A stretch of DNA of 64,000 nt from Nitrosopumilus sp. (GTDB taxonomy: Archaea; Thermoproteota; Nitrososphaeria; Nitrososphaerales; Nitrosopumilaceae), in NCBI RefSeq assembly GCF_025698945.1, contig NZ_JAILWM010000001.1, forward strand, positions 186,001 to 250,000, written 5' to 3'. Both the position numbers and the translations under genes were made by a program. Below the pieces are notes generated by a model, which did not search any database, was not told where the DNA came from, and worked only from the letters and a program-made list of their open reading frames with translations. Shown piece after piece: positions 43,589 through 51,829 of the stretch (its first letter is position 1; the number at the start of each line of letters is the position of its first letter).

Positions 43589-43702
43589 ATGTCAGAACAG
43601 GGTTCTGTCAGAAATGACTCTTTGTCAAGGCGTGACTTTTTGAAACTTTTTGGTGTAGAAACATATGTGATTCTAAACCTAATGTGTTTTGGACTAGTCT
43701 AA
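43589..43702 (+). CDS. Short twin-arginine signal peptide-like ORF
   Basis: A 37-residue frame with the motif SRRDFLKLFG (residues 13-22), a textbook Tat signal, followed by a hydrophobic stretch ending at a stop codon. It could be a small Tat-dependent or membrane peptide, or the remnant of a longer Tat substrate gene. It overlaps the convergent gene end by 4 nt. I see no in-frame continuation after the stop. Confidence 0.35.
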   Translation: MSEQGSVRNDSLSRRDFLKLFGVETYVILNLMCFGLV

Positions 43703-44766
43703 AATCTACTATCTACAAGTGATTTCATTCTACTCTGACATGATTTTTTTAAACTATTATCTAATCCATTGCAAAATTCTTCTGCCTTTTGGTCTGATAC
43801 AAATCTTGTAAGTGACTCTATTGCGCCAATTACGCATTGCTCTTGATATTTTAGAGGAGTTGAATTGCACATTAAAAGTGCCTTATCTACAGCATCAAAA
43901 CTATCTTTTGTCAAATGTGCAGCTACTCCCTTGTAACATATTGCAATGTATCTGGTATCTTCAATTCCAGAACACAGCGAGTATGTCTCTTGCAAGTTAT
44001 AGTCTGTCTGAATCAGAAAATAATTTGCCTGATATCTGTGGCATAGTGTTGCAGCCTCTTTGTTTTCTGTGCCGTTAATTTGGTTGCATGGATAGTAAAT
44101 ATCTGATTTCTTAAAATCTCCACCTTTCTTTTTGGCATATTCTGCCATGTTTTGCATAAACAAGCCTCCGTTACACATGTAAATTTCGCTCCAGTCATCA
44201 AACTCATTGCATCTCTCAAGTGCCTTTGTGGTGTTGTAGTTGTAAATTTTAACAAGACTATGCCCCATTCCGTGTATGCATTCTTTTTTTGCCTCATCAC
44301 CTAATGCGCTACTTACAATCTCACATGATTCTTTAATGCCCACTGATTCTATTGATTTCCCATCAAGCATGTTTTCAATCTGAATGGTATTCTCAAGCAG
44401 GCCATGCATGATTCCTGCGGCACATCTGTGATCAGAGAGTTCAGCTGCTTTTTGAAGATCTCTGTTTACGTACCCAAAAAGAAATTCCCCTACATGATGT
44501 GCTGATGGATGGCAGTAAAAATCTGATTCAACATACAAGTCTATCAACTCATCCAGCGTCAAAAATACTGTTTCTGTTGAATTGTTTTTTGATAATTCAT
44601 ACAATTTGTCAATAGTGCATTCATCATCATCGTAACATGTTTCAAATATGGAATCCGCATATGACACAGGTTTTGCTTGTATTTGATTAATCGATGATGA
44701 TCCAATAATGCATATTACAATTATGACAATTACACTCACTATTGCTAAATTTAACTTGGTCTTCAT
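43699..44766 (-). CDS. Cys/His-rich secreted repeat protein
   Basis: A 355-residue protein starting MKTKLNLAIVSV with a signal/anchor helix (about 6-28). The mature part has many Cys and repeated C...HG units: CHPSAHHVGEFL, CAAGIMHGLLE, CIHGMGHSL, CNGGLFMQNM, CHRYQAN, CYKGVAAHL. These look like helical repeats, each with conserved Cys/His/Gly. It might bind metal or haem or only form disulfides. It is the last gene of a three-gene minus-strand operon joined by ATGA overlaps. Confidence 0.6.
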   Translation of the reverse strand: MKTKLNLAIVSVIVIIVICIIGSSSINQIQAKPVSYADSIFETCYDDDECTIDKLYELSKNNSTETVFLTLDELIDLYVESDFYCHPSAHHVGEFLFGYVNRDLQKAAELSDHRCAAGIMHGLLENTIQIENMLDGKSIESVGIKESCEIVSSALGDEAKKECIHGMGHSLVKIYNYNTTKALERCNEFDDWSEIYMCNGGLFMQNMAEYAKKKGGDFKKSDIYYPCNQINGTENKEAATLCHRYQANYFLIQTDYNLQETYSLCSGIEDTRYIAICYKGVAAHLTKDSFDAVDKALLMCNSTPLKYQEQCVIGAIESLTRFVSDQKAEEFCNGLDNSLKKSCQSRMKSLVDSRF

Positions 44767-44963
44767 ATTCGTGCTATTTCTGATTCTAATCTTCTTTTGT
44801 TTGAACGAGTTGAATGCCTGACTCGAGTATTACAGCAAGGACATCGCAAGAATCTTTTTTTGAAATAATAATCACAAATTTTGCAGTAACATCCTCCTGT
44901 ATGATATGCAACATGTCTAGTAGTTGATTCTGATTTTGTGCATCTGCCTTTGCACAGTGTCAT
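44763..44963 (-). CDS. Zinc-ribbon basic protein
   Basis: A 66-residue protein starting at ATG 44963, which overlaps the stop of the regulator gene (ATGA); a longer frame to 45011 exists but is less likely. It has CYCKICDYYF and LRCPCCNTRVRH, i.e. two Cys pairs of a zinc ribbon, and a basic Arg-rich C-terminus. It may bind nucleic acid. It is coupled at both ends to its neighbours. Confidence 0.6.
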   Translation of the reverse strand: MTLCKGRCTKSESTTRHVAYHTGGCYCKICDYYFKKRFLRCPCCNTRVRHSTRSNKRRLESEIARI

Positions 44964-45811
44964 TTTGCATGTCCTCTTGATTTTTTGTTTTCTTTTCTTT
45001 TGGTAAACCAATACGTTAGAATTCTCTCTAAGATTATTCCTCCAGCAATAATGCCCAGCGAAATAATGATTGCAAAAATTAATTGCTCTGTAGTATCACC
45101 GTTTACTCCTTCAAATGGCTGTGGATACACAGTCCTATCCAAAGAAACAGAACCTGTGTTAGTTGCGTCTGTATCTGCTGAAAAATCAAAATACTCTGTT
45201 CCAGAATGACTTGGTTCTGGTTGGGGTTCTGGCTCAGGTTCCGGTATTGGTTCCATTTGAGGTTCAGGTTCAACTATTGTGGATTCTCCTGTTCTTACTT
45301 CTAAATTGACTTCTGGATTTGATTCTGGTGGTATGTCTTTTGTAAATTGTTCTTCACTTGTGCTTGATTCAATTCCTGGTGTATGTGGCTGTCCTTCATA
45401 GTTTGCATTGTTTGGTTTTAATGTAATCCATGATACAAATCCTGCCAACCCAATTGCTGCAAATTTTGAGAATTTCTTTAGTGATTCAATTACAGAACTA
45501 TTTGATTTTTCAGGTGTTATGAGAAATGTTTGGTTTGTAGAAACATAGTATTTCATTTCTTGACCCTTTGCAGATATTCCTGTTTTTGATACTTTGATCA
45601 TTCCAGCTGTCTGCATTCTTTTGAGATGATGTATTGCCAATGCCAAAGACATGTTGCTTTCTTGTGCAATTTCATTTGCAGTCATCTCGTTGCCATCTGA
45701 GATCAGCTTTAATATTTTCCTGCTAGAGTCATTGCTGAATATTTCGCCGATAAGCTTTATCTTGTCATCATCAGTTGAAATGATTTCTATCTCATCGTCT
45801 TCACTATTCAC
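44960..45811 (-). CDS. Membrane-tethered winged-helix regulator
   Basis: A 283-residue protein. Residues about 15-95 form an ArsR-like winged helix (SSRKILKLISDGNEMTANEIAQES...LAIHHLKRMQTAGMIKV...KYYVS). A hydrophobic helix at about 115-131 (FAAIGLAGFVSWITL) is followed by a Pro/Glu-rich outer segment (EPEPEPQPEP) and a second helix at about 240-263, with a Lys/Arg tail inside. This is a plausible sensor-regulator controlled from the cell surface. It heads an operon with a zinc-ribbon and a Cys/His-rich secreted protein. Confidence 0.75.
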   Translation of the reverse strand: MNSEDDEIEIISTDDDKIKLIGEIFSNDSSRKILKLISDGNEMTANEIAQESNMSLALAIHHLKRMQTAGMIKVSKTGISAKGQEMKYYVSTNQTFLITPEKSNSSVIESLKKFSKFAAIGLAGFVSWITLKPNNANYEGQPHTPGIESSTSEEQFTKDIPPESNPEVNLEVRTGESTIVEPEPQMEPIPEPEPEPQPEPSHSGTEYFDFSADTDATNTGSVSLDRTVYPQPFEGVNGDTTEQLIFAIIISLGIIAGGIILERILTYWFTKRKENKKSRGHAK

Positions 45812-45959
45812 AGTAAATACAGGTTTTATTATTTTATGAATTAAATGTTCGGTAAAATTGAAATTTAATCAAACGTTATAACCTTGATATTTTATAATTG
45901 GACAATGACTGTATCCTTAATACGAATCTTTTATTTACGTTGAGGAAAACCACAAAGAA

Positions 45960-47381
45960 ATGAAAACCAAAACAGGCATTTCGTTTCTAGTTGCCATATC
46001 TTCTATTTTGTTGATTTTTGTATTTCCTCTACAGGGACTTTCTGCAGATTCTGTCTTTAGTTTTGTAAATGATCTTTCACGAACTCAAACCACTACTATC
46101 AAAGTTACAGGTCAGGGTTCTCTTGATATTCCGCCTGATGCTGTATTTGTAAGATTGGATGTGAGAAGCACTCCTTCTGAGGATCTTGCCAAAGTTTTAG
46201 ATGATCAACAATATCTTGTAGCTGAACTGTTTGAATCCTTGGGTGAAACAGGAGAAAGCCTAGATGACTTTCAGGTGAGTAGGACCAATAATGGACGAAT
46301 CTATGCACAACAACACAGAATGTCCGATCCTTCACAGTCAAGCTATTTGGTAGATTTTAGAACTCATCTAAAAGTTCCATATGATCAAACTCATTCAATA
46401 TTCAAAGATCTTTCAAGTAATGGATTTGTTGTGGAAGGTGTAAGAATTGTACAAGAAAAAGATAATTCTGAAGCAATAGAGCCAACAAACTCTGCAACAA
46501 TTAGCATTCCTCATGGAACTGCTATTCCATCATGTGAGGAATCAAACTCTTGCTATGTTCCTTATGAGATTGTAATATCCCCTGGTACTAAGGTTACATG
46601 GACAAATGACGATGATGCAGCTCATACTGTAACTAGTGGTTCTCCAGATGGTGGTCCTGATGGAATATTTGATAGTGCTTTGTTTATGGCAGGTGAATCC
46701 TTCTCTCATTCCTTTTTACACTCTGGAAGTTTTGAATATTTTTGTATGGTCCATCCTTGGATGCTAGGTAAAGTTACTGTCTCTGGAAACACTGGTGATG
46801 CAACTTCCTCATATGGATTGTTTGCAGAGTTTGATGTTTTTTCACAATCAGCTCCTGACACTTTTGATAATACCATTTCAGAATATGATGAATCTATGGC
46901 AACATTGAGATCTATCCTGGAAAAACATGGAGTTGATTCAAAGAGTCTAAATGATCGTCCAATTAGAATTGATGAGCGTTATAGTGGGTATGGTGATCCT
47001 TACTATTATGAAAGCAGAGATACTATAATGATTAGAACATCAATTGAGAATATAATTACCGTACTTGATGTTGCGATGAATCACAATATACGAATTCAAG
47101 AAATCACTCCTACATATCTTCCATCAACATTAGAGAACGCAAGAACAACACTTGCTAAACTTGCATTAGATGATGCCAAATCCACCATTATGGATTTAGT
47201 TGGACCTGATGGACTTGAAGTAAAAGGTGTCAAATCTATTGAGATAAACACTTCCCAGCAAATTAATCCTCAATACGAAGGAATTGTGATTAGTGGCGTT
47301 GGAGTCAATCTTGATAGAAATTATTATGATTTATCTCCTCTCTTCACTAAAGTTCAAGTAGAGTTTGAAGTTGGACGTTAA
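45960..47381 (+). CDS. SIMPL (DUF541) domain protein with inserted plastocyanin-like domain
   Basis: A 473-residue exported protein (signal peptide about 1-29, ending GLSA-D). The SIMPL domain starts TIKVTGQGSLDIPPDAVFVRLDV, is interrupted at about 175-275 by a cupredoxin, and resumes (FAEFDVFSQSAPD ... GIVISGVGVNLD). Copper ligands are His222, Cys262, His265 and Met268 (CMVHPWM). SIMPL proteins are usually periplasmic or surface proteins of unclear role. The insertion suggests redox or copper sensing at the cell surface. It is divergent from the regulator operon. Confidence 0.82.
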   Translation: MKTKTGISFLVAISSILLIFVFPLQGLSADSVFSFVNDLSRTQTTTIKVTGQGSLDIPPDAVFVRLDVRSTPSEDLAKVLDDQQYLVAELFESLGETGESLDDFQVSRTNNGRIYAQQHRMSDPSQSSYLVDFRTHLKVPYDQTHSIFKDLSSNGFVVEGVRIVQEKDNSEAIEPTNSATISIPHGTAIPSCEESNSCYVPYEIVISPGTKVTWTNDDDAAHTVTSGSPDGGPDGIFDSALFMAGESFSHSFLHSGSFEYFCMVHPWMLGKVTVSGNTGDATSSYGLFAEFDVFSQSAPDTFDNTISEYDESMATLRSILEKHGVDSKSLNDRPIRIDERYSGYGDPYYYESRDTIMIRTSIENIITVLDVAMNHNIRIQEITPTYLPSTLENARTTLAKLALDDAKSTIMDLVGPDGLEVKGVKSIEINTSQQINPQYEGIVISGVGVNLDRNYYDLSPLFTKVQVEFEVGR

Positions 47382-50653: not shown

Positions 50654-51829
50654 ATGAAGTATTTTTTGATTTTCATTATTTTGATTGGTTTTTTGATTCC
50701 TTCAATTACATTTGCACAATATCTGGGAGATGTTGAATTTTACCACCTTCCTTTGACCGTAGAGTCAAAACAATACTCTATTCTAGCTCAATCCAATACC
50801 AACCACTTCACTGATGTGGTATATGACAGCAAAGCACACTCTTTAATTTTTTTAACGTCCTTATCTGAGGATTTTATCGACACTTATACTATAACCATGA
50901 ATGTACAGACATTTTCAGAAGTACTTGCCACAGATTATGCAAAAACTTCTGACTCTATGGTGGTGCTGGTAAATGGCGTGGATCAACCCTACAAAACCAT
51001 TGAAGACAATGAAATTATTTCATGGATCTTTTATGCACCAATATCATCTGATGAAGTAGAATTACTTCCTTCTAGTCCTAGATTTGGTACTGGTACATAC
51101 AAATTTGATAAAATTCCAAATGGATCTCCTAAAATTTATCCTCCATTAAAACAAGATCATGTTGGAATTGCTACTGAAAACATCCAATGCAAAGACGAAT
51201 TGCTTTTACTCCAAAAATATGATGGTTCTCCTGCATGTGTAAAACCAGAGTCAATTAACATTCTTGTTCATAGAGGATGGGCTGATGAAAAATTCCGAAC
51301 TCTGCCAATAATCGACTTTCAAAACCCAGATAGGATTTTTCGTGAGGTTGGGTATTTGGGATTGATGATGCTTCTTCCACACATAGAAGAAAACCAGACT
51401 GTAGCAATATCGCTTGAAGGTAAACCAAACATGATTTTACCGATTATTCAATACTATGAAATAGAAATTTTATCAGAAAAAACCAATACAAAAGAATCTT
51501 TTTCAAGCGTTTTTGGAAAAATTACCAAATCAAACCTCCAAAAATTCTTTGAGGAAAATCCAATGAATCTTTTTGTTAAACGTGGGGTACTAATGACATC
51601 ATTAGGGGGATATCAAGACAATATTGGAACCTATGGACCATTCAACCAATTTCTTACCGATAACGAGTCTCAGATAATTGGGGATGCTTTGACTTATTAT
51701 GAAAACAAGAGAACAAATGGAGAGGATGTACACTTTGATGATTTTGTCAAATGGCCAACCGGTAAACTCAACGAGTCATTTCTTCAAAAATCAAAACTGC
51801 TGGATATTGCCCGGATTGGAACTCCGTAA
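50654..51829 (+). CDS. Secreted protein with Cys-x15-Cys...RGW motif
   Basis: A 391-residue exported protein: signal peptide about 1-21 (ITFA-Q), an N-terminal Ig-like beta domain, then the array-wide motif CKDELLLLQKYDGSPACV ending in HRGW, and a C-terminal alpha/beta domain. Upstream sits the 27-nt element. Function unknown; the motif recurs at 57621, 59073 and 62228. Confidence 0.65.
   Translation: MKYFLIFIILIGFLIPSITFAQYLGDVEFYHLPLTVESKQYSILAQSNTNHFTDVVYDSKAHSLIFLTSLSEDFIDTYTITMNVQTFSEVLATDYAKTSDSMVVLVNGVDQPYKTIEDNEIISWIFYAPISSDEVELLPSSPRFGTGTYKFDKIPNGSPKIYPPLKQDHVGIATENIQCKDELLLLQKYDGSPACVKPESINILVHRGWADEKFRTLPIIDFQNPDRIFREVGYLGLMMLLPHIEENQTVAISLEGKPNMILPIIQYYEIEILSEKTNTKESFSSVFGKITKSNLQKFFEENPMNLFVKRGVLMTSLGGYQDNIGTYGPFNQFLTDNESQIIGDALTYYENKRTNGEDVHFDDFVKWPTGKLNESFLQKSKLLDIARIGTP

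Follow-up and report, generated by a model that had tools for sequence, protein, structure and literature searches.

A tandem SIMPL protein with a predicted type-1 copper domain between its repeats in Nitrosopumilus

The gene at positions 45,960 to 47,381 of the forward strand in a 64,000-nucleotide stretch of the genome of a Nitrosopumilus, an ammonia-oxidising archaeon (contig NZ_JAILWM010000001.1, positions 186,001 to 250,000; here called the window), very probably encodes a tandem SIMPL protein that carries a type-1 copper domain in the linker joining its two repeats, as judged from profile matches and structure models. SIMPL (DUF541) proteins are a widespread and little-understood family, and this gene is the single SIMPL gene in the window. 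The best overall explanation is that of an exported tandem SIMPL protein whose linker cupredoxin would have a stress-linked copper redox role, under the control of a membrane-anchored winged-helix regulator (mHTH) and an intergenic DNA element; this reading as a whole is given a probability of about 0.55.

The open reading frame call returned the predicted gene exactly, with a product of 473 amino acids (aa). A hydropathy scan places a signal peptide or hydrophobic N-terminus at aa 1–30 (46,049 being its last nucleotide and 45,960 its first), with the hydrophobic peak at aa 6–24. The original prediction spoke of a surface protein, and the evidence for this reaches as far as the signal peptide. 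The Pfam SIMPL profile PF04402 scores 46.4 bits on the whole protein against a gathering cut-off of 25.2, in two stretches, and between them lies a match of 34.4 bits to Copper-bind PF00127 (cut-off 21.2) at aa 198–274, so the expectation of SIMPL sequence on either side of a copper domain was borne out. Taken together with the models, these matches delimit an N-terminal repeat at aa 47–163 (46,098–46,448; profile positions 1–117), a cupredoxin domain at aa 180–275 (46,497–46,784) and a C-terminal repeat at aa 286–473 (46,815–47,378; profile positions 31–165), all on the plus strand. An artefact of assembly was considered and rejected, as the identical build is found in the single-contig genome G233 and in other genomes.

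The PF00127 score, the modelled fold and the ligand set agree on a complete, amicyanin-like predicted type-1 copper domain. The putative ligands are His222 (46,623–46,625), Cys262 (46,743–46,745), His265 (46,752–46,754) and Met268 (46,761–46,763), the same four residues that had been named beforehand, and both ligand motifs are kept in all eight cupredoxin-bearing fusion genes. In Foldseek, the cupredoxin matches 5fc9 (E 6e-9, TMt 0.84), and the nearest solved cupredoxins by sequence, 9cck and 5fc9, are both from Nitrosopumilus maritimus. The fold is that of these thaumarchaeal proteins (the purple cupredoxin 5fc9 and the C-terminal domain of 9cck), and other cupredoxins of the Nitrosopumilaceae reach 62–65% identity to the window domain; the difference is that the latter is embedded in a SIMPL protein, and also that 5fc9 aligns an Arg with the axial Met268. 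The His-Cys-His-Met ligands are those of amicyanin and plastocyanin (PF00127, TIGR02657), and the short C-x2-H-x2-M loop is presumably of the amicyanin type, but with 33.8 bits against an equivalog cut-off of 110.2 the domain falls outside the amicyanin equivalog TIGR02657. The proposed tie between a type-1 copper site and an exported SIMPL protein, in an archaeon that depends on copper, is supported.

That the copper domain interrupts one SIMPL domain, as was originally proposed, is a different matter. Scanned alone, the N-terminal flank covers positions 1–117 of the 205 in the PF04402 profile (24.0 bits, slightly below the Pfam cut-off of 25.2) and the C-terminal flank positions 31–165 (27.2 bits), instead of a single complete domain over positions 1–205. 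Positions 31–117, 87 in all, are matched by both flanks, and because an interrupted domain would give complementary parts, their double use argues for two SIMPL copies. The N repeats also align with the C repeats in hhalign (probability 98.4, E 5.7e-15, 98 columns), and two PF04402 stretches are present in nine of the nine full-length tandem relatives scanned with Pfam, the frameshifted L001 having one in its open piece. The window reading frame is missed at E 1 by a SIMPL profile built on 29 single-domain sequences of thaumarchaea, but matched by the Pfam profile; against the PDB by sequence, the profile of single-domain SIMPLs found a SIMPL structure and the C-repeat profile found none.

The structure predictions that were called for have been run, and they differ in quality. 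The full-length AlphaFold model is poor (pLDDT 51, pTM 0.27), and Foldseek returned only cupredoxin-fold proteins for it among the 50 matches listed. In its N-terminal flank, strands at aa 61–68, 105–109, 133–140 and 156–167 and helices at aa 76–96 and 141–153 are placed with low confidence, in the same order as in the model of the C-terminal flank. The latter, 194 aa modelled alone from a three-row alignment, reached pLDDT 64 and pTM 0.59 with the topology E-H-E-E-H-E-H-E-E, and its only Foldseek matches below 0.001 were the solved SIMPL structures 7c50 (SIMPL-like, E 2e-5) and 4hvz (BP26, E 5e-4). In VIA, 7c50 was again best (Z 10.6, 98 aligned, 2.5 Å), with the next unrelated rows at Z 9.5; as this margin of about one unit over ribosomal ferredoxin-like proteins is small, the claim of a SIMPL fold for the C repeat rests on the Foldseek ranking together with the sequence. 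The C repeat is accordingly a predicted SIMPL fold, and the N repeat is judged from its sequence and the poor full-length model. A single SIMPL domain formed by both flanks thus largely fails on the sequence and on the C-flank model.

The ends of the repeats add a further aspect. In the repeat alignment, the first strand is found only in the N repeat, the C repeats starting about 16 residues into a single-domain SIMPL, while the third helix and last strands are found only in the C repeat, the N repeats stopping before that helix; the core is thus present twice in the tandem protein, the first strand and the C-terminal helix-hairpin once each. The same partial ends (C repeats lacking the first strand, N repeats lacking the third helix) are seen in tandem relatives that have no cupredoxin. 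Such ends would fit a composite shell in which the two cores join into a single, larger SIMPL unit, with its only first strand from the N repeat, its only third helix and last strands from the C repeat and the cupredoxin projecting mid-way, and half of the nested picture would then hold. The C repeat alone, however, models as a SIMPL fold and the core of the profile is present in both flanks, and we consider such packing somewhat unlikely. Of the original nesting, what stands is a type-1 copper site within an exported SIMPL protein with unshared terminal elements at its two ends; the interruption of a single domain does not.

Compared with known members of the family (PF04402; YggE, BP26 in 4hvz and the Campylobacter protein in 7c50), the window protein has the same core of beta-alpha-beta-beta-alpha-beta and a signal peptide, but it differs in that a foreign domain separates two repeats, both of which are incomplete at one end; the solved members that were found are single-domain proteins. 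BP26 is a barrel-like hexadecamer, as described in PMC6884894, and by analogy the SIMPL repeats may assemble an envelope oligomer. The copper domain would give this assembly a one-electron copper redox capacity, and could pass electrons to and from the copper-containing carriers that abound in these cells, or buffer copper, the capacity serving envelope or oxidative stress defence. A stress role is suggested by NCBIfam naming and by one observation in Haloferax, where a SIMPL protein rises under oxidative stress according to a table entry in PMC12482152. The window protein is not among the matches listed for the NCBIfam model of YggE oxidative stress defense, NF008299 (equivalog cut-off 249 bits); for two relatives this model is the best SIMPL-side match, with scores of 34.7 and 38.5 bits that lie far below the cut-off. 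An envelope or oxidative stress protein with copper redox capacity is a tentative proposal. The built-in copper site would offer a spectroscopic handle on the SIMPL family.

Upstream of the fusion gene, and divergent from it at a distance of 148 bp, lies the gene of the mHTH regulator (44,960–45,811, minus strand; 283 aa), an ArsR-like winged-helix protein (Pfam HTH_24/HTH_5; mHTH profile E 7e-42) with hydrophobic segments at aa 113–131 (weak) and 243–261. It is accompanied by a conserved neighbour, the gene of a 355-aa exported protein with no Pfam match (43,699–44,766, minus strand). Of 83 loci rows, 35 have a member of the mHTH family directly upstream of a single-domain SIMPL gene. These comprise 21 of the 30 loci with the highest scores, 6 of 13 further ones (of which four repeat loci of the first set) and 8 of 40 chosen across genera; none of the 18 among these 40 that lie outside the Nitrosopumilaceae shows the arrangement. 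Because 12 of the SIMPL-linked regulators served to train the mHTH profile, their presence at those 12 loci is no independent evidence; such regulators were also found by blastp, with the window mHTH and two others as queries. The window mHTH is a paralogue of the regulator that faces single-domain SIMPLs. In genomes G149 and G059, the mHTH is 57% and 50% identical and the 355-aa neighbour 73–75% identical, and the divergent gene is a different one, which means that the slot opposite the mHTH is variable. For the same reason, the idea suggested by the promoter element, that the fusion replaced a single-domain SIMPL at its own locus, was rejected: the orthologous locus in G149 and G059 has a different divergent gene, and the single-domain SIMPL of G149 lies elsewhere. 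The pair of mHTH and 355-aa protein with its variable divergent gene can be seen in L257 (7590–9639) and L258 (7331–9465), as well as in the window.

Between the mHTH and fusion genes is a conserved element of 44 bp (45,839–45,882, plus strand). The window shares it with the stretches between the genes of 17 divergent pairs; its sequence is approximately ATTAAGACTTCTGGTTAAATTGAAATTTAATCAAACCTTATCTT and contains an inverted TTAA core. A position weight matrix (PWM) made from seven non-redundant sites, with ten near-copies dropped and the window site excluded, gives the window site a score of 34.4; the next best in the window is 11.9 (the same site on the other strand), and the maximum in 20 shuffled 64-kb sequences is 17.5. 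The element is unique in its own genome at up to three mismatches. A 28-bp form of it has 144 sites in 78 genomes among the 250 searched, versus one control match. Just under half of these sites (71 of 144) have a listed SIMPL domain 148–230 bp downstream, as do all ten exact sites. The other 73 are not near a listed SIMPL, and some precede genes of other exported proteins and of mHTH paralogues (20 stretches inspected), so that at two to three mismatches the element is not SIMPL-specific. It may contain ordinary promoter boxes. Other fusions do not have it at their own start, with best scores of 6.1 (L181), 13.0 (L182), 2.9 (L183), 2.3 (L186) and −0.3 (L180); in L179 (49.4) and L184 (32.5), the site precedes a neighbouring gene and not the fusion.

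In the preferred reading, the divergent mHTH, acting on this element, would set the expression of the fusion gene. The close divergent arrangement, the conserved element and the recurrent pairing of mHTH relatives with single-domain SIMPLs would also suit a bolder scheme, in which the fusion protein is the extracytoplasmic copper or redox sensor of the mHTH and the two form a one-component signalling pair. The mHTH and its 355-aa companion nevertheless face different genes in G149 and G059, other fusions are without the element at their own promoter, and the element precedes many other exported-protein genes; since the partners vary and the element occurs elsewhere, plain promoter control could be sufficient, and the sensor scheme is unlikely. 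A shade less likely still is its fullest form, in which the fusion would report the outside copper or redox state to a two-TM ArsR-type regulator that binds the element, the pairs of regulator and single-domain SIMPL being the copper-free version. If such a sensing module existed, SIMPL/DUF541 proteins in these archaea would be partners of membrane-bound transcription factors. That SIMPL genes are repeatedly paired with an mHTH and a shared DNA element in the Nitrosopumilaceae is itself a testable lead on their control.

Several observations were made in passing on these neighbourhoods. Paralogues of the mHTH face or adjoin other exported proteins, as at L234 (2116–3293, contig C2 of the same genome as the window), L241, L242, L243 and L244, and several of these loci carry a similar intergenic element, which suggests a family of regulator and exported-protein pairs. 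Beside the fusion of L001/G054, a 697-aa exported protein (L184, 7655–9788), which by eye we take to be serpin-like, has a SIMPL-type element just upstream. A Cys-pair motif, C-x(10-16)-..CVK..-GW, recurs in exported proteins near fusions: in the window (50,654–51,829, a protein with no Pfam match), in L179 (4391–5710) and in L184 (3906–5684, 7698–9788 and 9792–11408).

A search for the same architecture had been recommended, and it found seven further genes with the same domain order, well beyond chance. The C-repeat profile was run against 250 genomes of the Nitrosopumilaceae and the best rows were inspected; a second search covered 400 genomes of the order, a set that overlaps the first. 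Rows weaker than about 1e-14 were called single-domain from the length of the open frame, three of them being read (L152, L154 and L158). With the window's own, the order SIMPL-cupredoxin-SIMPL is present in at least eight genes of at least seven genomes. At least six of these genomes are in the family set (G000, G146, G056, G233, G113 and G054), where G146 carries two fusion genes, one of which runs off its contig, and where the G054 fusion is frameshifted, its contig being the same sequence as that of L001 from Candidatus Nitrosotalea. The order set adds one more among the matches listed (contig C10 of G660, L171). Tandem SIMPLs without a cupredoxin number at least five, one in the family (G196) and the others in another family of the order (G575, G646, G648 and contig C2 of G660), and their linker is short and without a domain match. 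Among the matches listed, 398 genomes of the phylum had no tandem SIMPL outside those two families, and viral contigs had no relative of either SIMPL profile. A SIMPL match occurs in 160 of the 250 family genomes, most of those listed being single-domain matches of about 270 aa. In the literature on SIMPL, YggE and BP26, on thaumarchaeal plastocyanin fusions and on cupredoxins and membrane regulators of ammonia-oxidising archaea, the architecture was not found in titles and abstract openings.

A tree of 44 SIMPL units puts all 11 N repeats in one group (SH-aLRT 98), all 11 C repeats in another (80) and all 22 single-domain SIMPLs in a third (98), with the reservation that the shorter length of the N rows could favour their grouping. 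As the N repeats cluster and the C repeats cluster, the duplication predates the present variety; a single SIMPL duplication is older than the difference between forms with and without a cupredoxin. With repeats that group as paralogues, relatives whose linker lacks a cupredoxin and flank profile ranges that overlap at 31–117, a strict single SIMPL domain split by the cupredoxin is rejected as very improbable, even though the copper domain has SIMPL sequence before and after it.

In a tree of 131 cupredoxins, made by a quick method, those of G000, G146, G056 and G233 share one fork (91) with three non-fusion rows, and those of G113, L001 and G660 are placed elsewhere on long branches. The fusion cupredoxins are not one clade: five label changes are needed, of which at least two are forced by well-supported branches. 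This scatter means that the copper part may have been gained more than once, exchanged or lost. The build is rare but recurrent, and suggests an older SIMPL scaffold to which copper chemistry was joined later. Two further loci deserve mention: in L187 (6031–8542, genome G660), a cupredoxin-less tandem SIMPL gene adjoins a divergent gene with a separate cupredoxin domain, and in L154 (973–2283, genome G049), a single-domain SIMPL has long extensions at both ends that are rich in Met, His, Asp, Gly and Tyr and are possibly metal-binding.
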